A DNA stretch of 34,462 nt. Source: a virus. Position 1 is the stretch's first letter. Each line of letters opens with the position of its first letter. A model generated the notes under the pieces. The model had not been told where the DNA came from, did no database searches, and saw only the letters and a program-made list of their open reading frames with translations. This document shows positions 7,944 through 34,462 of this stretch, one piece after another. The translations under genes were made by a program, and so were the position numbers. The stretch covers positions 1 through 34,462 of IMG/VR virus record IMGVR_UViG_3300006916_000159. One strand, given 5' to 3'.

Positions 7944-8342
7944 ATGTCAGCAGCCCACGTACCAACCCAAGACCTCTGCTCGCAGGTAGAGGCACTAGCT
8001 GGAGTGGGAGTTCCCTACGAAGCCATAGCCGCGTACATCGGGATTGCACCGATGACCCTCACTAAGCATTACAAAGAAAACCTACAGCTTGGAAAAGCTC
8101 GAGCATTCGAGAAGATCGGGCGCACCTTATTTCAGAAAGCACTCGACGGGGATAATACATGTTTGATTTTTTACGCCAAAACGCAGATGGGATGGAACGA
8201 GAAGATAGAGGTCTCGGGGGAAATAGACCTTATCCCAAGAATAGAGAAGACCATTACCACAATCGACGCTGTGAATATAATCGAACATGAAAGTGAATCT
8301 GCATCACAAGCAGACACAGGCGCAGTACTCGCCCGCGACTGA
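7944..8342 (+). CDS. terS: Terminase small subunit
   Basis: 132 residues. Residues about 12-44 (VEALAGVGVPYEAIAAYIGI then APMTLTKHY) are a helix-turn-helix of the small-terminase type. A basic helix (GKARAFEKIGRTLFQKAL) for oligomerisation and the characteristic IFYAKTQMGWNEK segment follow. The protein recognises phage DNA and regulates the large subunit during packaging. SD AAAGGA lies directly before the ATG. It overlaps the large subunit gene by 56 bases in another frame. The repeats just upstream are candidates for its DNA target. Confidence 0.88.
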   Translation: MSAAHVPTQDLCSQVEALAGVGVPYEAIAAYIGIAPMTLTKHYKENLQLGKARAFEKIGRTLFQKALDGDNTCLIFYAKTQMGWNEKIEVSGEIDLIPRIEKTITTIDAVNIIEHESESASQADTGAVLARD

Positions 8343-9708
8343 GATATTATTCGGCGGGGCAGCAGGGCCGGGAAAGTCACATCTACTTCGAGTTGCCGCA
8401 ATCGAATGGGCGCTTGATATCCCGCATCTGCAGATCTACCTATTTCGCCGCACGTTTCCTGACTTATGGAAGAATCATATGGAAGGCCCTTCCGGCTTTC
8501 CCTCATTACTTGCAGAATTCATGGAAAAAGGACTCTGCAAAATCAATTACAGTAAGAACTACATCGAATTCAAGAATGGATCCAAGATCATGCTCTGCCA
8601 TTTACAGTATGAAAAGGATCTATATAACTATCAGGGCGCAGAAATACACGTACTGCTGATGGATGAGTTAACGCAATTCAGCGAGGAAATGTATCGTTAC
8701 TTGCGAGGTCGCGTACGTATGATTGGCGTTAAGGTCCCGGAAGAGCATACTGGCAAATTCCCTAGAATCATAAGTGGCAGCAATCCCGGTGGTCTTGGGC
8801 ATTCATGGGTGAAGCGCACTTTTATCGATGACAAGCTCCCCATGAGCTGCTACCGCCAGAGCAAGAAAGAAGGGGGCATGCTACGCCAATTTATCCCGGC
8901 CAGAATGGATGATAACCCGGATCTGATGCGGGATGACCCTAATTACGGGGACCGCCTAGAAGGGTTAGGCAATAAAGATTTAGTCCGGGCCTATAAGGAA
9001 GGCGACTGGGATATTGTGGCAGGTGGCATTATTGATGATCTCTGGAATAGAGATAAGCATATCCTCCCGGCACTTATAGATGTGCCATCAAGCTGGACCA
9101 TAGATCGATCCTTTGACTGGGGCAGCAGCAAGCCCTTTAGTGTGGGGTGGTGGGCCGAGACAGATGGGACGCCGGCTGTTTTCGCGGATGGCAAAGAGCG
9201 TCATTTCCCTCGGGGAACCTTGATCCGCCTACATGAATGGTATGGCTGGAATGGAGAACCTAATACCGGATGTAAGATGCTGAGCGTGGAAATAGCGCGG
9301 GGTATTCTGAAGAAAGAAGAAATGATGAGACTGAAGGGCCGGGTAAAAGCAGGGCCGGCAGATAGCAGCATCTATGATGATGTGGATGGGAAATCCATAG
9401 CGGGGGAAATGTCTTTAGCTGGGGTCCGATGGGAGAAAGCGAATAAGAAAGCGGGTTCCCGGGTGCAAGGCTGGGAGCTATTGCGCCAACGACTGACGGC
9501 TTCGCTGCCCGATCGGCCAGAAGATCCGGGTCTCTATGTCACTGAATTATGTACACATTTCATAAGAACGATGCCGGTATTGCCGAGGGATAAGAAAAAG
9601 CCCGATGATGTGGACAGCGATGCCGAGGATCATATCGCCGATGAGGTACGCTACCGTTGCTTACATGAACGTAAATATTTGGTAGAGCAAACGTTATACG
9701 GGATGTAG
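8287..9708 (+). CDS. terL: Terminase large subunit
   Basis: 473 residues, the packaging ATPase and nuclease. Walker A is GGAAGPGKS at residues 23-31. Walker B is VLLMDE with Asp126-Glu127, followed by a coupling-type segment IISGSNPGG. The nuclease half opens with SFDWGSSKPFSVGWW, the RNase H-like DxG strand, and further acidic residues follow (GPADSSIYDD and DAEDHIADEVRY). The length is normal. The start has no clear SD, but overlap with terS and the short distance to Walker A are typical of this group. It works with the portal encoded just downstream. Confidence 0.95.
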   Translation: MKVNLHHKQTQAQYSPATEILFGGAAGPGKSHLLRVAAIEWALDIPHLQIYLFRRTFPDLWKNHMEGPSGFPSLLAEFMEKGLCKINYSKNYIEFKNGSKIMLCHLQYEKDLYNYQGAEIHVLLMDELTQFSEEMYRYLRGRVRMIGVKVPEEHTGKFPRIISGSNPGGLGHSWVKRTFIDDKLPMSCYRQSKKEGGMLRQFIPARMDDNPDLMRDDPNYGDRLEGLGNKDLVRAYKEGDWDIVAGGIIDDLWNRDKHILPALIDVPSSWTIDRSFDWGSSKPFSVGWWAETDGTPAVFADGKERHFPRGTLIRLHEWYGWNGEPNTGCKMLSVEIARGILKKEEMMRLKGRVKAGPADSSIYDDVDGKSIAGEMSLAGVRWEKANKKAGSRVQGWELLRQRLTASLPDRPEDPGLYVTELCTHFIRTMPVLPRDKKKPDDVDSDAEDHIADEVRYRCLHERKYLVEQTLYGM

Positions 9709-9771: not shown

Positions 9772-11229
9772 ATGCCAGTCAACACGCCTCATACCAACTA
9801 CACTGAACATGTAGGGAAATGGAAAAGATGCAGAGATACCATAGCGGGTTCTGATGCTGTTAAAATCAAAGAAGATACCTACCTTCCTCGACTTACCAAA
9901 CAAAGCGACAGCCAATACAAAGCATATGTGCAACGCGCTAATTTTTACGGCGCAACAGCACGTACGCATCAAGGTTTAATCGGCGCTGTCTTTCGCAAAG
10001 ACTACGAACTTGAAACTACTGATCCTGAAATCGAGCAATACATTACGCGCGAAGGATTGGACTTAACCGATCTATCAAAACGATTTGTTGCAGAGACATT
10101 GACGACAGGCAGATCAGGTGGCCTTGTTGATATCGATTCAAAGAGCGGCGGCAAGCGAGCATACATCGCTTTGTACACAGCAGAATCTATTTTGAACTGG
10201 CGTACGAAAACAGTGAGGGGAAAAGAAGTGCTATCCCAAGTCGTGCTCCAAGAGAACTACACAGAAGAAAACACTATCGATCCATTCATGCTGGAAGAGA
10301 AGCCGCAGTGGCGCGTACTCAAGTTAGATGAAAGAGAATTATACGTCCAAGAAATTTGGCGCCAGAAGAAAAGCACTGAAACGAAAGATGCCTCTGATAC
10401 GTATTACATTTTCGAGACTATCGAGCCTAAGAGAAACGGCACTCGTATCGACTTCATCCCTTTTCGTTTTATCTCTGCCGATAATCATTTAACCCGGATC
10501 AGCAAGCCACCATTACTGGATCTGGTTGACGTTAACTTATCCCATTACCGAACCTCTGCAGATCTGGAGCATGGCGCGCATTACACCGCATTGCCTACCG
10601 CATGGGTCGCGGGCTTTGAAACAGATAAGGATCTAGTGATAGGGAGTTCAGTAGCATGGGTAACCAATAATTCCAATGCCTCTGCCGGCTTCCTCGAATA
10701 CACCGGACAAGGGCTAGGCGCATTAAGCGGTTTATTGAAAGATAAAGAATCCATGATGGCGGCGCTAGGTGCGCGGCTGTTAGAAGAATCCAAGAAGGCA
10801 GCAGAAAGCGCCGAAGCATTAGAGATACGCCAATCAAGCGAGAACGCATCGCTTGCCGGCATCATACGCACTGTATCGACAGGTCTTGAAGATATGATGA
10901 ATTGGGTATCGTGGTGGAGTAACCCAACTGCGAAGACTGAAGCAAACAATTTCAATTTGAATATGGACTTCGTAGCTACTCGTATGTCGCCTCAAGAATT
11001 GCAGGCACTGATGGGCGCATGGCAGGGCGGTGGTATGTCTGTTGATACCTTCCTATGGAATCTGAAGCGGGGCGAAATGCTTCCTGAAGATCGCACGATT
11101 GAAGATGAAAAGGATCTTCTCGATAAAGACAAACCAACTGATGACATGCAGGATATCATCCCTATCAAGCGCAGATTCAACGTAGTGCAAGATGAAGAAG
11201 GCAATACGACAGGTGTTGAAGAAGCGTGA
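9772..11229 (+). CDS. Portal protein, DUF4055 type
   Basis: 485 residues. The N-terminal region has YLPRLTKQSDSQYKAYVQRA then NFYGATARTHQGLIGAVFRK, the sequence I associate with the DUF4055 phage portal family. TLTTGRSGGLVDI, DVNLSHYRTSADLEHGAHYT and a long helix ALGARLLEESKKAAESAEAL follow in the expected order for wing, clip/stem and crown parts. Portals form the dodecameric ring at one capsid vertex and receive the terminase motor. The acidic tail is normal. It follows terL after the stem-loop, with AGGA in front of the ATG. Confidence 0.9.
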   Translation: MPVNTPHTNYTEHVGKWKRCRDTIAGSDAVKIKEDTYLPRLTKQSDSQYKAYVQRANFYGATARTHQGLIGAVFRKDYELETTDPEIEQYITREGLDLTDLSKRFVAETLTTGRSGGLVDIDSKSGGKRAYIALYTAESILNWRTKTVRGKEVLSQVVLQENYTEENTIDPFMLEEKPQWRVLKLDERELYVQEIWRQKKSTETKDASDTYYIFETIEPKRNGTRIDFIPFRFISADNHLTRISKPPLLDLVDVNLSHYRTSADLEHGAHYTALPTAWVAGFETDKDLVIGSSVAWVTNNSNASAGFLEYTGQGLGALSGLLKDKESMMAALGARLLEESKKAAESAEALEIRQSSENASLAGIIRTVSTGLEDMMNWVSWWSNPTAKTEANNFNLNMDFVATRMSPQELQALMGAWQGGGMSVDTFLWNLKRGEMLPEDRTIEDEKDLLDKDKPTDDMQDIIPIKRRFNVVQDEEGNTTGVEEA

Positions 11230-19685: not shown

Positions 19686-20231
19686 ATGAAAGCATCGCAA
19701 AAAGAAACAGAGTTCTTGAAATTTCTTGAAGTCATAAAGGGCAAGAAGTCTTTGATGGAAATCGGATCGCGTTATGGCGAATCTTTGATACGCATGGCAG
19801 AGGTATTGGAGCCCGGTGCAGATATAACAGTCGTTGAATTACCCAATACGCAAACAGGCCGATCAGATAGCGTACCTATACTCGAAGCTAATTGTGAAAT
19901 GCTTCGCCAAAAAGGATTCAATGTTGATCTGATATTTGGCAGCAGTCGGGATATCGAAGTAATTCAAAAGGTGCATGCAAAAGAACATTTCGACGCTATC
20001 TTTATCGACGGCGATCACAGTTACGAAGGCGTTAAAGCAGATTGGCATCATTACGGGCACCTCGCAGACATCGTTGCCTTTCATGATGCATGCGCAACGA
20101 CATGGGAAGCGCGCCTATTATGGGAAGAAATAAAACATCGATTTCAGTACATGGAAATATTCGATAAGACAGGAGATCCGGTGCGCTATATGGGTATCGG
20201 TGTTTTGTTCATGGCCGCGCTGAATAAATAA
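19686..20231 (+). CDS. Class I SAM-dependent methyltransferase
   Basis: 181 residues. Motif I is LMEIGSRYGESL (24-33), the SAM-binding glycine loop. A Val-Glu pair (VVELPN) ends the second strand, and FDAIFIDGDHSYEGVKADW is the typical strand with Asp-His seen in Methyltransf_24-type enzymes that bind a metal and small or sugar substrates. FHDACATTWEARLLWEEI follows. The substrate is unknown. It starts 2 bases after a virion gene and lies inside the virion operon, so modification of a structural protein or surface glycan is a reasonable guess. Confidence 0.82.
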   Translation: MKASQKETEFLKFLEVIKGKKSLMEIGSRYGESLIRMAEVLEPGADITVVELPNTQTGRSDSVPILEANCEMLRQKGFNVDLIFGSSRDIEVIQKVHAKEHFDAIFIDGDHSYEGVKADWHHYGHLADIVAFHDACATTWEARLLWEEIKHRFQYMEIFDKTGDPVRYMGIGVLFMAALNK

Positions 20232-20463: not shown

Positions 20464-21386
20464 TGGCAACGAAATCATTTAAGAAGCGCGCGTTAACGCT
20501 TGCTACCCTAGGTATACTAGGTGCTGCTACGCCGCTGTCGATGGCAACGCTTGGGCATAACCAACGTGCCGTCGGAGTTGTCGAACCAGAAGTACCTTTT
20601 GAACGAGTTGTTGCTGCTGGCGGCATTTCGCGTATTGACTATGCAGAAAAGCCAGCAATATATTACCACCGGTCAACGCTCTCTCTCGCGTTAATCGCAT
20701 TTACGAATAATGAATTTCAGCCTGTAGCGCTGAATGAACACAGTTTTAATTCTAGCGCATCTTTTATCTTAATCGGTGATTCAGAGCAAAGTGCATCCCA
20801 TTCAAACGAACATAATTCGACACTAGAGCTTGGCATTGCGTCAGTTTTAGATGTCTCCCTGTTTGAACCTAGTGCAGTTGAAAATGATTCGACGTTAGTT
20901 GTTACCCTTGCTTCTGACACTGAATTTGGCTTTTCTGAACAGGTGACGCTTAGCGTCTCCCCGAACCTGTTTGTCTCGCTAGATACTGCATCTAGGTTCA
21001 ATCTTACCCGCGTTGGCGAATCAGTAATATCGGTTAGCTCTGATCTAACGATCGCATCCGATAGCAGTTATGAATTCGAGGCGCAACAAGCGAGTGCAGA
21101 ATATGATTCGCAATCGATAACAGTTGCAATTATTAACAGCGAGATAAATGCAGAATTTATCCCTGCGATAGTAGCTACTGAAACAAGCACAACCAGCAGA
21201 GGCGTATTCTCCGTTGTCGGTATTGCAGATTATTCTTTTGAAAGCGAAGAACGCAATGATCATAGCCATACATCGATGAACGGAACGGCAACGATGATAT
21301 CGCTTACAGATGCCTTCTTTGAAAGAAGAAAGGTTAAGGATAAAACGTTAATGCTGTTATTAGCAGCGATGTATGACGATGATTAA
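20463..21386 (+). CDS. Beta-rich virion-region protein with signal-like N-terminus
   Basis: 307 residues. The first 30 (MATKSFKKRALTLATLGILG then AATPLSMATLG) look like a bacterial signal sequence: basic start, hydrophobic stretch, small residues. The rest is Ser/Thr/Glu-rich with alternating strands and no Cys, typical of fibre or decoration proteins. The end is helical (KDKTLMLLLAAMYDDD). If the N-terminus is really a signal, this would be an exported protein; it may equally be a virion protein with a hydrophobic anchor. No family recognised. Confidence 0.6.
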   Translation: MATKSFKKRALTLATLGILGAATPLSMATLGHNQRAVGVVEPEVPFERVVAAGGISRIDYAEKPAIYYHRSTLSLALIAFTNNEFQPVALNEHSFNSSASFILIGDSEQSASHSNEHNSTLELGIASVLDVSLFEPSAVENDSTLVVTLASDTEFGFSEQVTLSVSPNLFVSLDTASRFNLTRVGESVISVSSDLTIASDSSYEFEAQQASAEYDSQSITVAIINSEINAEFIPAIVATETSTTSRGVFSVVGIADYSFESEERNDHSHTSMNGTATMISLTDAFFERRKVKDKTLMLLLAAMYDDD

Positions 21387-22032
21387 TGCGCCTAAGTATT
21401 ACATTAAAAAAACAGAGAAAGTTTCCCGCATAGAGGACGATTCTACTATTGGGGTAATGGGGCAATGGGATAATCCCACTAAAGAAAGAATCAGCAGGAA
21501 ATTATTGCGCAGCGTAGAACTTGTTGCAGAAGAAGCATTACAGATACCTTTCCCTAATATACTGGATATAGGTTGCTTCACTGGATACACCTATGATTGG
21601 CTTGTTAAATATATACAAGGCGATTTTAAATACCTAGGGATAGATATCGATGCTGAAGCAATCGAGATAGCGACAAAAACACATAACGCAAAACCAATTT
21701 ATAGAACGCATGATCTCTATGGCATAAACTGTCCCTTCGCAGACATTGCAATATGCTCGCGCGTATTGATCCACGTTCCCGATTTTCGTAAAGCACTGGA
21801 GAAGATATTGACCGCTGCACCTGTTGCTGTGATCTCGCTCAGCTTTTCAGATAGATGGCAAATCATAAAGAAAACAGTTGGCATGCAAGATCAATCTCCC
21901 GATGGAGTTTATTACCATCGATACGTAACAACGGCTAATCTCGAAAAAATGTTTAACGAATTAGGGATCGTATGTAGTAAGATACCCAATACGACAAAAG
22001 GTACGCATTCAATGGTGATCCGCAATGGCTGA
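21373..22032 (+). CDS. Class I SAM-dependent methyltransferase (second)
   Basis: 219 residues; an ATG at 21379 is an alternative start. Motif I ILDIGCFTGYTYDWL (63-77), motif II GIDIDAEAIEIA (89-100), then HDLYGINCPFADIAICSRVL with IHVPDF, the usual Methyltransf_11/25 order (Asp at strand 4, then SRVLIHV). A tyrosine-rich loop (DGVYYHRYVTTANL) follows. It overlaps the upstream gene by 14 bases and the downstream MuF gene by 8. The substrate is unknown. It is not clearly similar to the methyltransferase at 19686 outside the SAM fold. Confidence 0.83.
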   Translation: MTMINAPKYYIKKTEKVSRIEDDSTIGVMGQWDNPTKERISRKLLRSVELVAEEALQIPFPNILDIGCFTGYTYDWLVKYIQGDFKYLGIDIDAEAIEIATKTHNAKPIYRTHDLYGINCPFADIAICSRVLIHVPDFRKALEKILTAAPVAVISLSFSDRWQIIKKTVGMQDQSPDGVYYHRYVTTANLEKMFNELGIVCSKIPNTTKGTHSMVIRNG

Positions 22033-25000
22033 TAACAATACCACAAAGAAAATCGCAGAGGCACTTCTGAAGCACGATATCGATTTAATGAAAGTCGAAA
22101 ACGGGGTCAAAGCAAAGATCACAAAAATGTTTAACGGTCTTGGCAAAGAGTTAATCAATAAAATAAAACGGGTCGATCCTTCCGCGCCGGCGCAAATAGT
22201 AACCAAGACAAAGCGACTCGATACTTTAGTTGCGGTATCTGACCCGGTTATCAAAAATGCCTATAAGCAGATGGAAGATCTTTTATCTGATGAATTAAAA
22301 GGCGTGGCGCAATTAGAGGGCATCATACAAGAGCAGGCAATCAACAGCTCGGTAGGTGCTGAATTAGTAAGTGGAAGATTAAATCCAAATACACTTGTTT
22401 CCTTATCTAAAAATACAGTCGTCGAAGGGGCTGTTATAAAAGACTGGTGGGCTTCACAATCATCGACGTTTAGGGATGCTTACAAACGCGAAATCAATAC
22501 TGCGATAATGAGCAATGAAACAATGGGCGACATGGTGCGAAGAATACGCGGCACTAAGGCAAATAATTTCAAAGACGGATTAATATCGACAAGCACGCGC
22601 CGCGCGAATGCCCTTGCCCGGTCATCCGTGCTCGCAGTAACGAACGATGCCCGGTTTTCAATGTATAAAGAAAATGCAGATGTCATAAAAGGCGTCGAAT
22701 GGTTATCTACGCTTGATGGGCGAACCACGGATATCTGCAAGGCGCTCGACGGTCAGGCATGGAAGTTAAACGGCGATAGATTAGATGGCACGACGCTCGC
22801 ATTCAGAGGCCCACCTCCTGCGCATTGGAATTGCCGTAGTACATTGGTGCCTATTACCAAGTCATTCGCAGAATTAGCAAAGAATCCAGCATCAAAGAAA
22901 AAGCTGGCGAAGATGCCGCCCGATAAAATCAGGGATGCCCGCGCCAGCATGGACGGCAAGATATCTGGTGGGTTAAATTACGAGGAATGGCTTAAAACAA
23001 AGCCAGAAGATTTCCAGATTGAAGTGCTCGGCCCTATCAAGCATAAATTATGGAAGCAGGGAAAATTATCCTTCACTGACCTAGTTGATCAGTCGCACAA
23101 TCCTTTATCGATAGCAGAGCTGACCGAAAAGCTGAATATCAAGATCGCCCTAACCAATACCGCCAAAAAAGAAGCCGAAGAGAAAGCCGCCAAAGCAGCA
23201 ATACGAAAAGAGCAAGCAGAAGCACTTGCCAAGAAGAAAGCCGCCGAGGAAAAGGCCGCAAAGGCCGCCATAGACGATTATGTAGCCGCCGCAGTCGCAG
23301 GAAAGCCCATCCCGGCCGCAGCAGAAGCGGAATTTGGCAAGTTAGGGATACTAGGCAAGCATAACGTAGAGTCTTCCATATCATTGCAAAAACAGGCGCT
23401 TAAAGAGGCCGCAGAGGCAAAGGCGATTGCCGCCCAAGAAGCAGCCGCTGCCAAGGCGGCGGCTGAAGCCGCGGAGAAGGCCATTATCGAAGCACAGAAG
23501 AAAGCTGCTGCTGAAGCCCTCGTCGCCCAAGAAGCCTCCCTGCAACAGACCGCTCTCGATAAGTTATCGGCTATTGTAGTTAATGATACTCCCTACAAGA
23601 AGGCGGCTTTCCTTAAATTAGGTAAAGATCCCTCTTTCGGTAAACTGACGCCTGTCGAGAAACTGGTAAAGGTCAACGCATCTGCTGCCGCAGCGAAGCA
23701 GCAAGTGGGACTAAGCAACTATAAAAAAGCAATCCTCGCCGGGAAGAAACCCACGCCGCAAGCGCAATCCATATTTGACGATCTAGGGGACTTCGAGAAA
23801 CAGAATATCACCACGGCAATCAATGCTGAGAAAAAGACGACCGCACTGGCGTCTGATTATGTCAAGGCAATTCAAACCAGCAAGGTACCAAGCGCTGCAG
23901 AAGTAGAGGCATTTAACAACCTGACCCCGGCAAAGAAAGCAAAATTATTAAAGAAGGTAGACGAGGCAAACTCGGTCAAGGTAGCAGAGGATATTACCGG
24001 GTTCGATCTAGGCTTTAGTTCAGCCGCTAAAGCAGCAGATGATATCGTCGATGAAGTCATGGAATTTAAACCTACTAATTTTACCCAGATCGGATCGCAA
24101 AAAGGTAGTAACACGGGAGGCCTATTTCAGAACATAGAAACAGGCAATAAGTGGTACGTGAAAACAGATATCGTGGAAGACGCTGCGCGCAATGAAGTAT
24201 TAGCCGCGAACTTTTACAAAGCAGCGGGAATCGATGTCCCGGAAGTCGTATTGGTTAATATGCCAGATGGAACATTCGGGGTTGCATCCCGTTACATCGA
24301 TGATCTTGTTCAAAGCGAAAATAGATTGAAATGGGGAGTCCCAACTGGTATCCGGGAAGGCTTCGGGATGGACGCATGGCTTGCGAACTGGGATGTGGTA
24401 GGTCTGAGCTACGATAATATGCTGATCAATGGCCGCAAAATATTGCGCCTAGATACCGGCGGCGCTTTGCGGTACCGGGCACAAGGCGGACTGAAAGGAA
24501 ACGCATTCGGTAAGTCGGTAGATGAAATAGAAACAATGCGAAAAGTGGCAGACAATCCGCAAGCCGCCAGCGTGTTTGGCAATATGACTAAAGAGCAGCT
24601 AGACGAATCGGTGCGAAAAGTATTAGCGTTTACAGATGATCAAATAGATGATCTTGTTACCAAGTATGGGCCTGTACTTAAATCCGATAAGAAAGATCTT
24701 GCTGATATACTAAAAGCGCGCCGCACTGATCTGAAGAAACGCTTTCCCCATTTAGCGGAGAAACCGAAACCAGCACCGAAACCGAAAGACGCAAACCTTC
24801 GGATATCCAAAACAGAAGAACAAAGAATAGATGGTGCCAGAAGTAATGGCTATGCGATAAGAACAGACCTTGATCAAATAGAAGACCAGTCTGTACTAAT
24901 ATGGCGCGAAGTAGATGAAAAAGGAAATATAGTAACGAGGGCACAATTAAAAGTTACTGAAAAGGGGCGCGCAGCAATAGCGAAAACGATAGAGGATCTA

Positions 25001-26527
25001 GAAGTCGTAGAAGAGCTGGAGGTATTGGTCGTTCCGCTACAGAATACGTACGAATCGTTTAAGATCGCAGTTAGAGGGATGCGCCGCCAGCTCTTTGTAG
25101 AAGGGGGAACTCTTCGTCCCGTAGATTATACAAGGATGGAAGAAGCCCTCGATAGGTATAGGCATATTAATAGAGAAATTAAGGCTTTGGACGGGCTGGA
25201 TTCAAAGACGGTAAAAAAATTCACCAATGATTTCGACGGCTGGGCAAAAGAATTCAAAGAGCTTATCGATGCAAAAGATAAATTAAAAACAGTAGATGAC
25301 GTAATAGAAATTGGCAAGATATTAGATAACTCGAAGCGCAATGTCCTCCCTCCTTCCATCAAAAAAGTGCCGGCTAAAAAAGAACTTAAAGAAGGCGTAC
25401 TCGACTGGTCAAAAGAAACCGGGGTTGGGGTATATAAGCAAAAAGAAATAGTTAATGGGAAGATTACCAAAACAATAGACAATGCCGTATCCCATGAAAA
25501 CTACCCGGTAGGACTCGAAAAAGTACATACCCTTGATTTGGGTGATACGAAGATAAATTATTTTAGAGGGAAGGAGAAAGTAAGGAGAAGCGCTTACGCG
25601 GAAAAATTAGAAGGAGACGTGCAGCAATTTGCTCTTAGGGATAGAGTTGAAATAACTGTCGCCGGCGATGATTCCCAAAAGATATTTGAAGCAATAGAAA
25701 AGATGGGGATTAATGCTTCCGCACCATCAGCAGACGATATTGAATTACTTTACCTGCGCAAGATAGCAGCAGCACGCAGGCAGTCAAAAATATTGCAGGA
25801 AGAAATAGGGGCAAGTCAAAATACGGCTGTTCAGTTAAAGAATGCCCGAAAATATCTAGAGGATGCGACGGGCACCAAGATCGAGGACATGCCAGAGTAT
25901 AAGCCGTTCGGGAAAAGGCAGGCATTCGACAATAGCCATATCTACACCGAGCGCCCAGATCTAGACCCGGTGGAGTTTAAGGAATTCACAGAAAAGTACC
26001 GGATAACGCATGAGCTTTATCAAGCAGGGGACGAACTGGAAGCTATTGTTCAATCTGGTGGGCAATTAATAGCTACCACCGATAAGCTGCGAAGAGGAAT
26101 TAATCTTTACGGTAAATCTCCGATACAAGATCTTAATACAGGCGGGGCGAACTATGTATTCACCCGGATAACGCCAGCAAAAAAATTAGCCGCTACAGAC
26201 CGATCTTATATCGTATATAAACCCAAAATGGTAAAACGCACCGATGCTGTATCCTATCGAACCGATGAGTATGGGGAAGTGCGACCGCAATTTATGGAAG
26301 AGAAGAGGCTTCCTAAAATCTCTGACTGGGTGGATGCGGCGGAGAATAATACGAATTATAATGAGACCTTATTTAAAAATAGTGTTTCTTTATATGACGA
26401 TGTGGAGAGTATTCTTATCCCGCAGCGCAAAGTTGAGGCTACCATCGAAATGTTTAAACGAAACAAAATCGAAAGATGGCCCGACGGCCGCGCATTAGAA
26501 GATGTGATTAAACCGAATGTACGTTAG
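22025..26527 (+). CDS. 1500-residue MuF minor head protein fused to kinase-like and ART-like domains
   Basis: Residues ~90-280 are a Phage_Mu_F head-morphogenesis domain: TTDICKALDGQAW (235-247) and RGPPPAHWNCRST (261-273). Residues ~375-505 are an Ala/Lys/Glu-rich helix. About four helical repeats (YKKAILAGKKPTPQAQSIF and others) run to ~645. Residues ~686-905 resemble a HipA/PI4K-like kinase: WYVKTD (Lys713), Glu724, LANWDVVGLSYDN (Asp790, Asn798), LRLDTGG (Asp810). Residues ~1340-1495 resemble an ADP-ribosyltransferase: LIATTDKLRRGINLYG, LNTGGANYVFTRI and NETLFKNSVSLYDDVESI with possible catalytic Glu1447. This is the layout of polyvalent phage proteins and MuF polymorphic toxins carried in the capsid. 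The MuF call is firm; the kinase and ART calls are by motif. Confidence 0.82.
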   Translation: MADNNTTKKIAEALLKHDIDLMKVENGVKAKITKMFNGLGKELINKIKRVDPSAPAQIVTKTKRLDTLVAVSDPVIKNAYKQMEDLLSDELKGVAQLEGIIQEQAINSSVGAELVSGRLNPNTLVSLSKNTVVEGAVIKDWWASQSSTFRDAYKREINTAIMSNETMGDMVRRIRGTKANNFKDGLISTSTRRANALARSSVLAVTNDARFSMYKENADVIKGVEWLSTLDGRTTDICKALDGQAWKLNGDRLDGTTLAFRGPPPAHWNCRSTLVPITKSFAELAKNPASKKKLAKMPPDKIRDARASMDGKISGGLNYEEWLKTKPEDFQIEVLGPIKHKLWKQGKLSFTDLVDQSHNPLSIAELTEKLNIKIALTNTAKKEAEEKAAKAAIRKEQAEALAKKKAAEEKAAKAAIDDYVAAAVAGKPIPAAAEAEFGKLGILGKHNVESSISLQKQALKEAAEAKAIAAQEAAAAKAAAEAAEKAIIEAQKKAAAEALVAQEASLQQTALDKLSAIVVNDTPYKKAAFLKLGKDPSFGKLTPVEKLVKVNASAAAAKQQVGLSNYKKAILAGKKPTPQAQSIFDDLGDFEKQNITTAINAEKKTTALASDYVKAIQTSKVPSAAEVEAFNNLTPAKKAKLLKKVDEANSVKVAEDITGFDLGFSSAAKAADDIVDEVMEFKPTNFTQIGSQKGSNTGGLFQNIETGNKWYVKTDIVEDAARNEVLAANFYKAAGIDVPEVVLVNMPDGTFGVASRYIDDLVQSENRLKWGVPTGIREGFGMDAWLANWDVVGLSYDNMLINGRKILRLDTGGALRYRAQGGLKGNAFGKSVDEIETMRKVADNPQAASVFGNMTKEQLDESVRKVLAFTDDQIDDLVTKYGPVLKSDKKDLADILKARRTDLKKRFPHLAEKPKPAPKPKDANLRISKTEEQRIDGARSNGYAIRTDLDQIEDQSVLIWREVDEKGNIVTRAQLKVTEKGRAAIAKTIEDLEVVEELEVLVVPLQNTYESFKIAVRGMRRQLFVEGGTLRPVDYTRMEEALDRYRHINREIKALDGLDSKTVKKFTNDFDGWAKEFKELIDAKDKLKTVDDVIEIGKILDNSKRNVLPPSIKKVPAKKELKEGVLDWSKETGVGVYKQKEIVNGKITKTIDNAVSHENYPVGLEKVHTLDLGDTKINYFRGKEKVRRSAYAEKLEGDVQQFALRDRVEITVAGDDSQKIFEAIEKMGINASAPSADDIELLYLRKIAAARRQSKILQEEIGASQNTAVQLKNARKYLEDATGTKIEDMPEYKPFGKRQAFDNSHIYTERPDLDPVEFKEFTEKYRITHELYQAGDELEAIVQSGGQLIATTDKLRRGINLYGKSPIQDLNTGGANYVFTRITPAKKLAATDRSYIVYKPKMVKRTDAVSYRTDEYGEVRPQFMEEKRLPKISDWVDAAENNTNYNETLFKNSVSLYDDVESILIPQRKVEATIEMFKRNKIERWPDGRALEDVIKPNVR

Positions 26528-28700: not shown

Positions 28701-29014
28701 TACATTTCCTCTCCTGCCTTATGGATTGCATTAACAATGATCGAACGTGCTTTAAAATAATCATCTGATCCTAGCTTGATGCCTTTTGAATAAAGAAGAG
28801 CATTTACTTGTTTCAGGGCATCTAGCAAATCAGGAGCAGCAAGAATCAATTTTGCATTCGCTTCGCATTTAGGGGAGCTCTCTCCATCTTCCATGCGCCA
28901 CACTACTGTCGCGAGAGCTCCATGCTCCTCAGAAGAAATACATCTTATTTCTCCCGGCTCATCTTCATCCCAATGCTCGGTGAATATCCATGGTGCCTTG
29001 TCGTGCCTAGCCAT
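28700..29014 (-). CDS. Conserved small phage protein
   Basis: 104 residues. The stretch CEANAKLILAAPDLLDALKQ is a hallmark of a very common phage protein type (NARLIAAAPDLLEAL), usually found in early regions and without known function. The N-terminal half is a strand-rich domain (APWIFTEHWDEDEPGEIRCI, then LATVVWRM). It lies directly after ardC with a one-base overlap, so it is probably co-translated. Confidence 0.75.
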   Translation of the reverse strand: MARHDKAPWIFTEHWDEDEPGEIRCISSEEHGALATVVWRMEDGESSPKCEANAKLILAAPDLLDALKQVNALLYSKGIKLGSDDYFKARSIIVNAIHKAGEEM

Positions 29015-29871
29015 TATGCTTTCTCCTCTTTCTGTTGTTCGATTAACCAGTCGCTGGCAAGTTGTGCTTTCGCAGATGCTTGGAAAATAAACGATGTATC
29101 ATTCTTCAATGCAGCGATCCAATTCTTTAAGTACTTCGCGTGATCTTCGCGAGGCTCAGACTCAAGCCCTAGATGCGCCATTGTAAATGCGCTTCCTAAT
29201 TCAGCAATCAATTCTTCAAAGGCATAAGTCTCATCCCCATACTTCCCGGATAAGTTACGATCAAGACGTGTCTTTGCGCCGGTCGCATGGGTAAATTCAT
29301 GAAACAATACCGAGTAATAACTTTCAGCATCTTTAAACTGATCTAACTTCGGAATGTGAACACGATCAGTTGAAGGCATGTAGAACGCTTGACCGATATC
29401 ATTGCGCACTTCGATACCGCAGTTCTTTACAAACTCTTCTGCGTGCTTCACTGCTTTGTTATCATTCAACGTGTTGTCGAATACGATAGGCTCATAGCCG
29501 TCGACTTGCGAACAATTAAAAACAGTTGAGTGTTTCAGTAATGGGATCGTTTTCTTTTCGCCCGTGTCCTTATCTTCAATTTCAAAAGGCATGTAATAGA
29601 TAACAAGATGACCCTTCTCCCCTTTACGAACTTGCGCACCGATCGATTCCCATTGCTTGTAGGAGGCGAATTCAAGAACACTGTATCCCGTTAAGCCTAA
29701 CCAGAAAGTATTCATACCTCGATACGTTTTTTTCGTAACCGCATTGATCGGCATCATGTCGATGCTGAACCAAGGCTTTTTATAATCTGATGCGATGCAT
29801 GCTTGCATCTGCTCGATGATCTTATCCGTAATAATTTTACGAACATCCTTTTTTGCTTTTTTCTTTGCCAT
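29014..29871 (-). CDS. ardC: ArdC-type antirestriction protein
   Basis: 285 residues. The N-terminal domain (~8-125) is ArdC-N/DUF1738, a single-stranded DNA binding domain: KPWFSIDMMPINAVTKKTYR, GMNTFWLGL, QWESIGAQVRKGEKGHLVIY. The C-terminal domain is the metallopeptidase-like part: YYSVLFHEFTHATGAKTRLD with HEFTH at 191-195 and FEELIAELGSAF with the third zinc-ligand glutamate. ArdC of plasmid pSa protects incoming DNA from host restriction, and polyvalent phage proteins carry the same pair of domains. It is preceded by its own promoter, a structured RNA element and the conserved leader. A complete, apparently active gene. Confidence 0.92.
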   Translation of the reverse strand: MAKKKAKKDVRKIITDKIIEQMQACIASDYKKPWFSIDMMPINAVTKKTYRGMNTFWLGLTGYSVLEFASYKQWESIGAQVRKGEKGHLVIYYMPFEIEDKDTGEKKTIPLLKHSTVFNCSQVDGYEPIVFDNTLNDNKAVKHAEEFVKNCGIEVRNDIGQAFYMPSTDRVHIPKLDQFKDAESYYSVLFHEFTHATGAKTRLDRNLSGKYGDETYAFEELIAELGSAFTMAHLGLESEPREDHAKYLKNWIAALKNDTSFIFQASAKAQLASDWLIEQQKEEKA

Positions 29872-32122: not shown

Positions 32123-32205
32123 AGTTAATTTATTTAATAAAAACAATAACTTATAGGTAATATTGAAAACCAAGGAAAATAATTTCCAGATTTCACTCGT
32201 TTTTG

Positions 32206-32236
32206 TTGTCATTTTCGCCGGTTTTTTGTATATAAT
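32206..32236 (+). promoter_or_regulatory. Promoter for the head genes
   Basis: TTGTCA at 32206-32211 is followed by TATATAAT at 32229-32236: TATATA at 17 bp or TATAAT at 19 bp spacing. Transcription would start near 32242, about 20 bases before the TTG start at 32262 and its AAAGGA site. It lacks the early block and so is likely a different promoter class. Confidence 0.6.
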
Positions 32237-32261
32237 ACCCAAACTTGAAAGGAAAAAGCCT

Positions 32262-33143
32262 TTGTTACTACAACCATTATCAGCGCCGATACACTTACGC
32301 CACTATTCTCTTGTTGCAGAAAAGAGCAGCGACAACGGCAAGAAAATCAAATTTGTAAATCCTAATGTCGATAATTACGACAGAAATATAAAGCACGCCG
32401 CGTCACTTGGGCTGCCTTGTTACCAAAAAAATCAATTCGAGGGACGCGCGGTAATAGTATGCGGCAGCGGCCCATCTTTAAAAAATCCAGAAGTGCTCGA
32501 CGAAATTCGCCGACGCATAGCAGATGACAATGCAATCCTTGTCGCATGCAAAAAAGCAATCAAATACCTATACGAAGAAGGCTTCCAAGTCGATTGGGCG
32601 GTTTCTATGGATCCCGGTGATCATATCGCCAATGACGATCGTATGTTCCGGGCACCCAATGTTAAGCACTTGATCGCATCATCAAGTGATCCTGCTGTAT
32701 TTGAATGGCTGAAGGATGAGGATGTAACGATCTTCCATAGCGCAACAGGCTATGAAAAAGAGGTGAGGCTGTACAAAGAATTATTCGATAACGATATGTG
32801 CATGGGTGGCGGCTATAATGTAGTCAACCGGGCAGTATCTGCTTTCTTGTATATGGGCTGCAAGCCTATGGTATTGGCAGGAACAGATTGCGGCTGGCGC
32901 GAAGGCTCGAAATTTTATGTTGACGAGACAAACAATCGACCGGGTGTGGATATGTGCGACAACGGCGCGGTAGATGGCACGCCTTGGATGACGCGCCCTG
33001 ATATGCTCGCAAGCGCTGTATCGCTTGCTAAATTAGCGAAGAGCATGAGCGAGAAAGATTTCGTAATGCTAGGGGATACCATACCCTCTAAGCTGCGATA
33101 CAAGGACAATGATTTTTTAGACAACTGCGCAAGAATGGGATAA
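32262..33143 (+). CDS. MptE-like / DUF115 family protein
   Basis: 293 residues if the TTG at 32262 is used (AAAGGA upstream, promoter just before). The frame is open back to a TTG at 32163, which would add a 33-residue hydrophobic N-terminus that the promoter overlaps. GRAVIVCGSGPSL (61-73) is the nucleotide-binding-type loop of the 6-hydroxymethylpterin diphosphokinase MptE-like/DUF115 fold. DWAVSMDPGDH, GGGYNVVNRAVSAFLYMGCK and MVLAGTDCGW follow. Related domains occur in flagellin glycosylation proteins and in phage genomes beside head genes. The role in this phage is unknown. Confidence 0.78.
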   Translation: MLLQPLSAPIHLRHYSLVAEKSSDNGKKIKFVNPNVDNYDRNIKHAASLGLPCYQKNQFEGRAVIVCGSGPSLKNPEVLDEIRRRIADDNAILVACKKAIKYLYEEGFQVDWAVSMDPGDHIANDDRMFRAPNVKHLIASSSDPAVFEWLKDEDVTIFHSATGYEKEVRLYKELFDNDMCMGGGYNVVNRAVSAFLYMGCKPMVLAGTDCGWREGSKFYVDETNNRPGVDMCDNGAVDGTPWMTRPDMLASAVSLAKLAKSMSEKDFVMLGDTIPSKLRYKDNDFLDNCARMG

Positions 33144-33160
33144 TTAAGGGGATATAAACT

Positions 33161-33973
33161 ATGTTAAAAGCAACTGTAAAAGCACTGACTGAAGTAGATG
33201 AAAAATACCGTGAGCTGTATAAACAGGTCGGCGAAGAATTTGTACTTGATCTGGATGACGGTGATTACAAAACCCGTATATCAGAATTCAGAAATAACAA
33301 CATTGAGTTGACTCGCCAGCTTGAAGAAATGAAAAAGCAAGGCGCCTCTGTTGAAGAAATGCAAAAGAAATTAGCTGAGTTCGACGGCATTGATGTCGAG
33401 CAAGCAAAAGAGGCGATGGAACAAGCGCGCCAAATGAAAGACAAAAAATTATTAGATGCAGGTAAGATCGATGAGTTGATCGCAGAGCGCACAGAGCGCA
33501 TGCGCCAAGATTACGATGGTAAAGTATCTGCCTTGCAAAAAGCCCTTGAAAATGCAGAAGGTTCTGCGGGCGAATTCAAGAATAAATTATCAACTGTTGT
33601 TATCGATAACAGTTTACAGCAAGCGGTATCCCAAGTTGCAGCAGTAAGGAAAGGCGCAATGCAAGATATCATTGCAAGAGGACGTAGCGTATGGTCTCTC
33701 GATGACCAAGGAAATCCAATACCGAACGGTCCTGATGGATCAGTGCTATATGGCGCTGATGCTAAAACGCCTCTCAGCATGACTGAATGGGCAGAAAGTC
33801 TTGTTAAAGAAGCAGACTATCTTTTCGATGGTAACGCAGGTGGTGGCGGTGGTGGTAACGACAAAGGTAAATCCGGTGGAGATCCTAAAGGCGTTCCTTC
33901 CCACGATGCCGATGCCATAGGCGCGAATCTTGAGGGTATTGCTTCAGGGCAAGTAACCGTAGTAAACAACTAA
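33161..33973 (+). CDS. Capsid scaffolding protein
   Basis: 270 residues, strongly charged and helical: LTRQLEEMKKQGASVEEMQK, EQAKEAMEQARQMKDKKLLD, MRQDYDGKVSALQKALENAE. Then come a globular part (AVRKGAMQDIIARGRSVWSL) and a Gly-rich linker (GGGGGGNDKGKSGGD) before the end. This coiled coil, conserved AVRKGAxxDI region and disordered tail fit phage scaffolds. The gene lies directly before the major capsid gene, the usual place. SD AAGGGG. Confidence 0.85.
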   Translation: MLKATVKALTEVDEKYRELYKQVGEEFVLDLDDGDYKTRISEFRNNNIELTRQLEEMKKQGASVEEMQKKLAEFDGIDVEQAKEAMEQARQMKDKKLLDAGKIDELIAERTERMRQDYDGKVSALQKALENAEGSAGEFKNKLSTVVIDNSLQQAVSQVAAVRKGAMQDIIARGRSVWSLDDQGNPIPNGPDGSVLYGADAKTPLSMTEWAESLVKEADYLFDGNAGGGGGGNDKGKSGGDPKGVPSHDADAIGANLEGIASGQVTVVNN

Positions 33974-34060: not shown

Positions 34061-34462
34061 ATGGCTAACACATTAGCAACAATTATGCCGAAAATCCTTG
34101 CACGAGGACTTTTGGCTCTACGCGAACAGGCAGTAATGCCTCGTTTGGTTAACGGCAGCTACAGCGCAGAAGCAGCAGAAAAGGGCGACACTATCGACGT
34201 GCCTATCCCAACAGCAAACGCTGCGACGGATGTAACTCCTTCAGCGACGCCTTCTGCACCAACTGACACGACTCCTGAAAAAGTTCAAATTGCATTGGAC
34301 AACTGGAAGAAAGTTAACTTCCATATGTCTGATAAAGATATGGTCGAAGTGGATAAGAACGCTCATTTCATCCCTATGCAAATGTCAGAAGCAGTACGCG
34401 CACTTGCCAACGTAGTTAACATCGATATTCATAACGAATATGTAGGCGTATATGGTTACACC
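34061..34462 (+). CDS. Major capsid protein, P22-like coat (3' end cut off)
   Basis: The first 134 residues are visible; the frame is open to the window end. MANTLATIMPKILARGLLAL, REQAVMPRLVNGSYSAEAAE then KGDTIDVPIPTANAATDV and a strand-rich part WKKVNFHMSDKDMVEV are typical of P22 gp5-type HK97-fold coats, with N-arm then first core strands. SD GAGGAG lies 10 bases before the ATG. It directly follows the scaffold. The call rests on these features and synteny. Confidence 0.88.
   Translation, partial: MANTLATIMPKILARGLLALREQAVMPRLVNGSYSAEAAEKGDTIDVPIPTANAATDVTPSATPSAPTDTTPEKVQIALDNWKKVNFHMSDKDMVEVDKNAHFIPMQMSEAVRALANVVNIDIHNEYVGVYGYT

Follow-up and report, generated by a model that had tools for sequence, protein, structure and literature searches.

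A single open reading frame of 1500 codons, encoding a protein with a MuF head domain, a kinase-like domain and an ADP-ribosyltransferase (ART)-like domain, is carried by the virus record IMGVR_UViG_3300006916_000159, whose 34,462 bases we refer to as the window. The frame begins with an ATG that overlaps the stop codon of the methyltransferase gene before it, and the longest open frame across 100 shuffles of the window reached 203 codons. A first-pass annotation had drawn the frame exactly, and its MuF head domain agrees with the matches to PF04233 and phrog_241; the Ala/Lys-rich helical stretch that it placed next is seen here too. The protein is laid out as follows.

22025..26527, + strand: MuF-kinase-ART protein, 1500 amino acids, whole frame with stop included
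22490..22846, + strand: MuF minor head domain, residues 156-274 (PF04233, phrog_241)
23159..24049, + strand: Ala/Lys-rich helical linker with YKKAI..GK.P repeats, residues 379-675 (from the sequence)
24050..24769, + strand: HipA/CtkA-like kinase domain, residues 676-915 (model, Foldseek, VIA)
24770..25939, + strand: conserved middle, residues 916-1305 (model of residues 905-1500)
25940..26524, + strand: DarT-like ART fold, residues 1306-1500 (model, VIA, Foldseek)

The MuF domain scores 42.3 bits against Pfam PF04233 (E 1.4e-10), above the curated cut-off of 29.6, and the head morphogenesis family phrog_241 of PHROGs covers residues 5-516 (E 6.5e-93). About one thousand phage records are similar to the protein, mostly over this N-terminal part. 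Two units of the linker repeat, at residues 566 and 612, were located by a pattern search. The frame, the MuF domain and the kinase-then-ART order are established here by observation, and a kinase fold with a complete active site and an ART-type fold with His-Tyr-Glu (H-Y-E) residues by structural modelling. An assembly chimera at the kinase-ART junction is disfavoured by relatives with the same domain order; on a second viral contig (L096) the C-terminal 130 residues are identical, and the likeness to the window goes on beyond them.

Structure prediction, which the first-pass annotation had proposed as the test on which its kinase and ART assignments could fail, returned both folds. The kinase model, built on an alignment of 76 viral sequences, has a predicted local distance difference test score (pLDDT) of 96.1 and a predicted template modelling score (pTM) of 0.92. 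Its top Foldseek match is CtkA (E 4.9e-8), with HipT next, and VIA-align superimposes it on CtkA over 219 residues with Z 16.2, a root-mean-square deviation (rmsd) of 3.5 and 16% identity, followed by CotH (Z 14.8), PI4KII (13.3), MavQ (12.7), HipT (12.0) and HipA (10-12). The domain had been called HipA/PI4K-like; the kinase fold stands, and its closest kin is instead CtkA, nearer than HipA or PI4K. Four of the five active-site residues below (all except Glu724) had already been singled out as key residues, and each is almost always kept.

24161..24163, + strand: Lys713, predicted ATP-binding lysine, 147/149 domains
24194..24196, + strand: Glu724, predicted partner of Lys713, 148/149 domains
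24392..24394, + strand: Asp790, predicted catalytic base, 146/149 domains
24416..24418, + strand: Asn798, predicted metal ligand, 147/149 domains
24452..24454, + strand: Asp810, predicted metal ligand (DFG-like Asp), 146/149 domains

Of the 149 domains, 144 have the full K-E-D-N-D set; the five that do not include three second copies from tandem proteins. Because the kinase fold comes with this conserved active-site set, the domain is predicted to work like a HipA/CtkA-type kinase. Pfam HipA_C stays below its cut-off (E 0.016, 15.3 bits against 30.5), so we do not file the domain as a HipA family member, and the HipA N-terminal domain has no match in the 1500-residue protein. Neither Pfam, with this sub-cut-off hit, nor PHROGs names the window kinase; the NCBIfam search covered its relatives only. 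A sequence search of the PDB with the kinase profile returned nothing significant, CtkA appearing at E 0.74 through collinear weak stretches. Tandem kinase domains whose second copy lacks some active-site residues occur at L092:1925-5767, L076:3698-9613 and L216:4350-7070, and their sequences suggest that such degenerate copies may be pseudokinase partners.

The C-terminal domain very likely has an ART fold, as had been proposed, although its support is weaker than that for the kinase and the resemblance is to DarT rather than to Alt/VIP2. The model of residues 905-1500 has pLDDT 87 overall and about 95 across the ART. The best VIA match is Thermus DarT 7omx (Z 8.9, rmsd 3.7, 150 residues aligned; model positions 417-596, residues 1321-1500), and the six DarT entries, the only family in that list to match the ART part (about residues 1311-1500), have Z 8.1-8.9, near the tool's stated noise level of 7-8. 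VIA matches on model residues 94-211 were helical-bundle matches and were ignored. The two stretches pointed out as ART motifs, GGANYVFTRI and NETLFKNSV, prove to contain a near-invariant Tyr and an invariant Glu, with the His of the triad lying upstream; the family was retrieved from 70 viral loci and conservation was counted over 72 relatives.

26009..26011, + strand: His1329, predicted NAD-binding His, 58/72 relatives (3 have another letter, the rest are cut before it or gapped)
26153..26155, + strand: Tyr1377 in GGANYVFTRI, 70/72 relatives, Phe in two
26363..26365, + strand: Glu1447 in NETLFKNSV, predicted catalytic Glu, 72/72 relatives

Invariant in this family are Asp1369, Gly1373, Gly1374, Asp1407, Asp1414, Gly1417 and Glu1447. 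His1329 lines up at DarT strand 1 and Glu1447 at strand 5; a profile comparison with 17 bacterial DarTs, not significant as a whole (2% probability), contains two local matches, at the His1329 strand and the Glu1447 strand, and in this weak alignment Glu1447 falls on a Glu invariant across the 17. The conserved Arg of DarT (R63 of L225) has no evident counterpart in the window ART, where the alignment is weak, and for this reason we regard DNA as no more than a possible substrate. The DarT profile PF14487 has no match in the window, and the best relative remains below its cut-off (E 3e-4, 20 bits against 22.5); on that cut-off we reject DarT membership and keep DarT as the nearest fold. The Alt/VIP2 class is likewise rejected, there being no PF03496 match and H-Y-E residues in place of R-S-E. 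No similarity was detected between the window ART profile and the virion RNA polymerase (vRNAP) protein of a Roseovarius phage, which carries the N4-type ART, and a PDB sequence search with this profile found nothing significant. Pfam and PHROGs leave the domain unnamed, and a BFVD search returned uncharacterised proteins, the best coverage being a Tupanvirus protein of 170 residues (A0A6N1NNZ5, TMt 0.69).

The stretch between the two enzyme-like parts, initially set at residues ~920-1340 and left unassigned, is rebounded here to 916-1305. It is modelled as four units, a small alpha/beta unit, a helical bundle, a beta unit and an alpha/beta unit, and no search that we made identified an enzyme in it. 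The middle is shared in part with gp15 of Pseudanabaena phage Pan1, a MuF protein with the same ART and no kinase.

The kinase-then-ART arrangement is a recurrent module in many phages. Relatives of the kinase (residues 685-907) were found in 19 sequenced phage records at about 32-44% identity and in 462 viral contigs, and those that keep the active site are only about 30-50% identical to the window kinase. The combination of two enzymes in one capsid protein had been thought unusual; instead, 53 of 58 viral kinase proteins (3'-complete, non-redundant and found by the kinase alone) carry an ART, a fraction that is neither unbiased nor a census because loci were taken in order of similarity to the window kinase. 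The ART is DarT-like in 31 and Alt/VIP2-like in 22; none has both and 5 have neither. Among all proteins collected, DarT-like ARTs always follow the kinase and VIP2-like ARTs do so in 54 of 58. Parsimony on a 100-row kinase tree counts 11 changes of ART class, at least 2 of which are forced by strongly supported branches; the pairing thus outlives replacement of the ART, and that the kinase stays while the ART is exchanged is an argument for a common purpose of the two enzymes. Of 34 full-length relatives, 22 have MuF; other N-termini are seen as well, including in frames of more than 2,000 codons. The same parts are neighbouring genes in Gordonia phage Forza (portal 77, kinase 78, ART 80), and gp129 of Yersinia phage fHe-Yen8-01, with kinase and ART, is annotated 'phage particle associated protein'. 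A NUDIX domain was found in 3/34 and 4/36 relatives, and in Mecenats66 and ST4 the second gene past the kinase-ART gene encodes NUDIX.

Most relatives are in viral contigs and some in bacterial chromosomes; in bacterial genomes the kinase occurs at 56 loci in several phyla, with ARTs, NUDIX and minor capsid domains recurring. Loci L187, L188 and L198 lie in Pseudomonas chromosomes; in L187 and L198 a NUDIX-like stretch at the C-terminus comes after the kinase, with no recognised ART. At L193-L215 (Gastranaerophilales and other metagenome-assembled genomes) the tails of the kinase proteins look like further ART classes, some with an E-x-V-x-P-x-G motif. A 2820-residue protein at L011:2833-11292 has the kinase and apparently several ART domains in one chain, and L126-L163 hold giant frames, of up to 5461 codons (L151 record), with a DarT-like ART and often the kinase too.

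The gene lies among head genes recognised through PHROGs.

8287..9708, + strand: terminase large subunit (phrog_979, E 3.1e-39)
9772..11229, + strand: portal protein (phrog_145, E 3.5e-127)
33161..33973, + strand: head scaffolding protein (phrog_206, E 2.5e-38)
34061..34462, + strand: major head protein, cut by the window end (phrog_283, E 9e-24)

Two S-adenosylmethionine-dependent methyltransferases are encoded upstream of the MuF gene (19686-20231 and 21373-22032, both + strand), the second overlapping its start. An MptE-like domain protein (32163-33143, + strand; PF01973, E 4.7e-22) is encoded just upstream of the scaffold gene, and the end of a DNA polymerase gene was recognised from reading the frames. 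An ArdC-type antirestriction protein (29014-29871, - strand; ArdcN and MPTase-PolyVal, E 3.8e-46) is likely a second injected or early counter-defence protein. In a scan covering part of the window frames, none of the four genes that follow the 1500-residue protein matched Pfam, and no HipB was recognised; no DarG was recognised either, no immunity gene in the downstream genes scanned, and no integrase in the scanned parts of the window.

MuF proteins are known to carry enzymes into phage heads, and T4 Alt, once ejected, modifies the host RNA polymerase (PMC9503650, PMC5512222, PMC5576092); MuF fusions of head-packaged ARTs are likewise well established (PMC9503650, PMC5512222). By analogy with MuF-borne enzymes and the ejection of Alt, we infer the packaging, ejection, enzymatic activity and targets of the window protein, and we think it likely to be a two-enzyme effector carried in the head of a tailed phage, ejected and modifying host molecules early. 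The MuF domain would place the protein close to the portal as the new head is built, with the helical linker and the domains after it lying inside the head with the DNA. At infection the whole chain or its C-terminal part would leave with the DNA and refold in the cytoplasm, where the HipA/CtkA-like kinase would phosphorylate, and the DarT-like ART would ADP-ribosylate, host molecules before phage gene expression. The host may thereby be shut down or redirected, or its defences disarmed. More widely, the kinase-ART pair is probably a two-enzyme package, common among phages, which they would inject into bacterial hosts so as to take them over or disarm them. More tentatively, the HipA/CtkA-like kinase and an interchangeable DarT-like or Alt-like ART may be delivered as one unit, either sharing a host target or linked through control of the ART by the kinase, such that phosphorylation and ADP-ribosylation would be coupled at the first moments of infection.

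Several observations weigh against a two-enzyme effector. Besides the DarT scores close to noise, the non-significant DarT profile comparison and the ranking of the kinase loci given above, the best ART match in Foldseek against the PDB is SopF, itself an ART, at a non-significant E of 0.033; there is no Pfam ART match in the window protein; and 22 of 47 bacterial genome loci with the kinase have a recognised ART.

The kinase-fold domain might instead act on a small molecule or lipid, or transfer AMP or glutamate, for instance in NAD or ADP-ribose metabolism with its ART and NUDIX partners. The nearness of its fold to PI4KII and the Legionella lipid kinase MavQ, and the NUDIX domains and genes that accompany some relatives, are consistent with such a role. 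CtkA and CotH, the closest folds, are protein kinases, and the active-site set is complete, which makes such a role unlikely, if worth keeping in view. We consider it distinctly unlikely that the kinase acts in cis, on the ART of its own chain or on the head, silencing the ART in the producing cell or activating it after ejection so that only the ART touches the host. A constant kinase-then-ART order in one chain while the ART class swaps would suit this arrangement, as would the lack of a recognised immunity gene among the downstream genes scanned, but Forza-type phages have kinase and ART as separate proteins and some kinase proteins end in NUDIX, with no recognised ART.

We give little credence to a MuF polymorphic toxin serving competition between lysogens and non-lysogens, as modelled by Jamet et al. 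(2017), in place of a takeover effector: the MuF and C-terminal ART fit that family layout (PMC5576092) and some relatives sit in bacterial chromosomes, but neither an integrase nor an immunity gene was recognised in the scanned window parts, and the window has ArdC and the end of a DNA polymerase gene. That the enzyme-like domains are catalytically dead fillers of the head is hardly credible, since first-copy active sites are almost always kept at about 30-50% identity and Glu1447 is invariant, even though MuF proteins can be purely structural and the second tandem copies at L092, L076 and L216 lack some active-site residues.

A head-borne two-enzyme effector would matter in a field where few phage protein kinases have been studied and most knowledge of head-delivered ARTs comes from T4. 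With a kinase regularly travelling with one of two ART classes in the head proteins of many phages, including Pseudomonas putida isolates such as Dolphis (gp117) and Jeremy, phosphorylation and ADP-ribosylation at entry would become directly testable, and many large head proteins annotated as hypothetical would gain a function.

MuF-ART fusions and multi-enzyme polyvalent proteins are already known, from papers with a different kinase or none, and no HipA. In the literature searched (open-licence PMC papers, with bioRxiv outside) we found no report of a HipA/CtkA kinase with an ART or MuF in phages, and head proteins that pair a kinase of this type with exchangeable ARTs appear undescribed there. 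Like the MuF polymorphic toxins (Jamet et al. 2017, PMC5576092), the window protein has an N-terminal MuF and a C-terminal enzyme, ARTs being among their known C-termini; unlike them, it has two enzymes in series and no recognised immunity gene, and that paper mentions no kinase. Like the polyvalent proteins (Iyer et al. 2017, PMC5512222), among which ARTs and kinases both occur, it is a single chain of several effector domains, encoded in association with virion genes. Their kinases, however, are truncated Ser/Thr/Tyr kinases without a C-lobe, HipA going unmentioned, whereas the window kinase is a complete HipA/CtkA-type domain, and the N4-type HYD ART of the polyvalent prototype has no detectable similarity to the window ART.

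CtkA of Helicobacter pylori (PDB 3akj/3akk/3akl) is the best fold match of the window kinase, but the matched chains have neither MuF nor ART and the sequence similarity is not significant (E 0.74). The toxin kinases HipA and HipT share its fold and active-site residues and differ in that the window kinase falls below the HipA_C cut-off, with no HipA N-terminal domain match and no recognised HipB. A HipA-like kinase gene also lies between the portal and major capsid genes of the Gratiaviridae, which are gut phages (PMC8008677); there it is a separate protein explained as superinfection immunity, with no ART link reported. DarT (PDB 7omx, 8baq) is the best fold match of the ART, with Z 8.1-8.9 and the His and Glu positions lining up, but the window ART misses the profile cut-off, the invariant Arg has no evident counterpart and no DarG was recognised. 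Pan1 gp15 combines MuF with the same C-terminal ART family (32% identity) and differs in having no kinase. The window protein has H-Y-E where T4 Alt and VIP2 have R-S-E, yet Alt is likewise a head-packaged ART, and many relatives of the window protein carry the Alt/VIP2 class after the same kinase.
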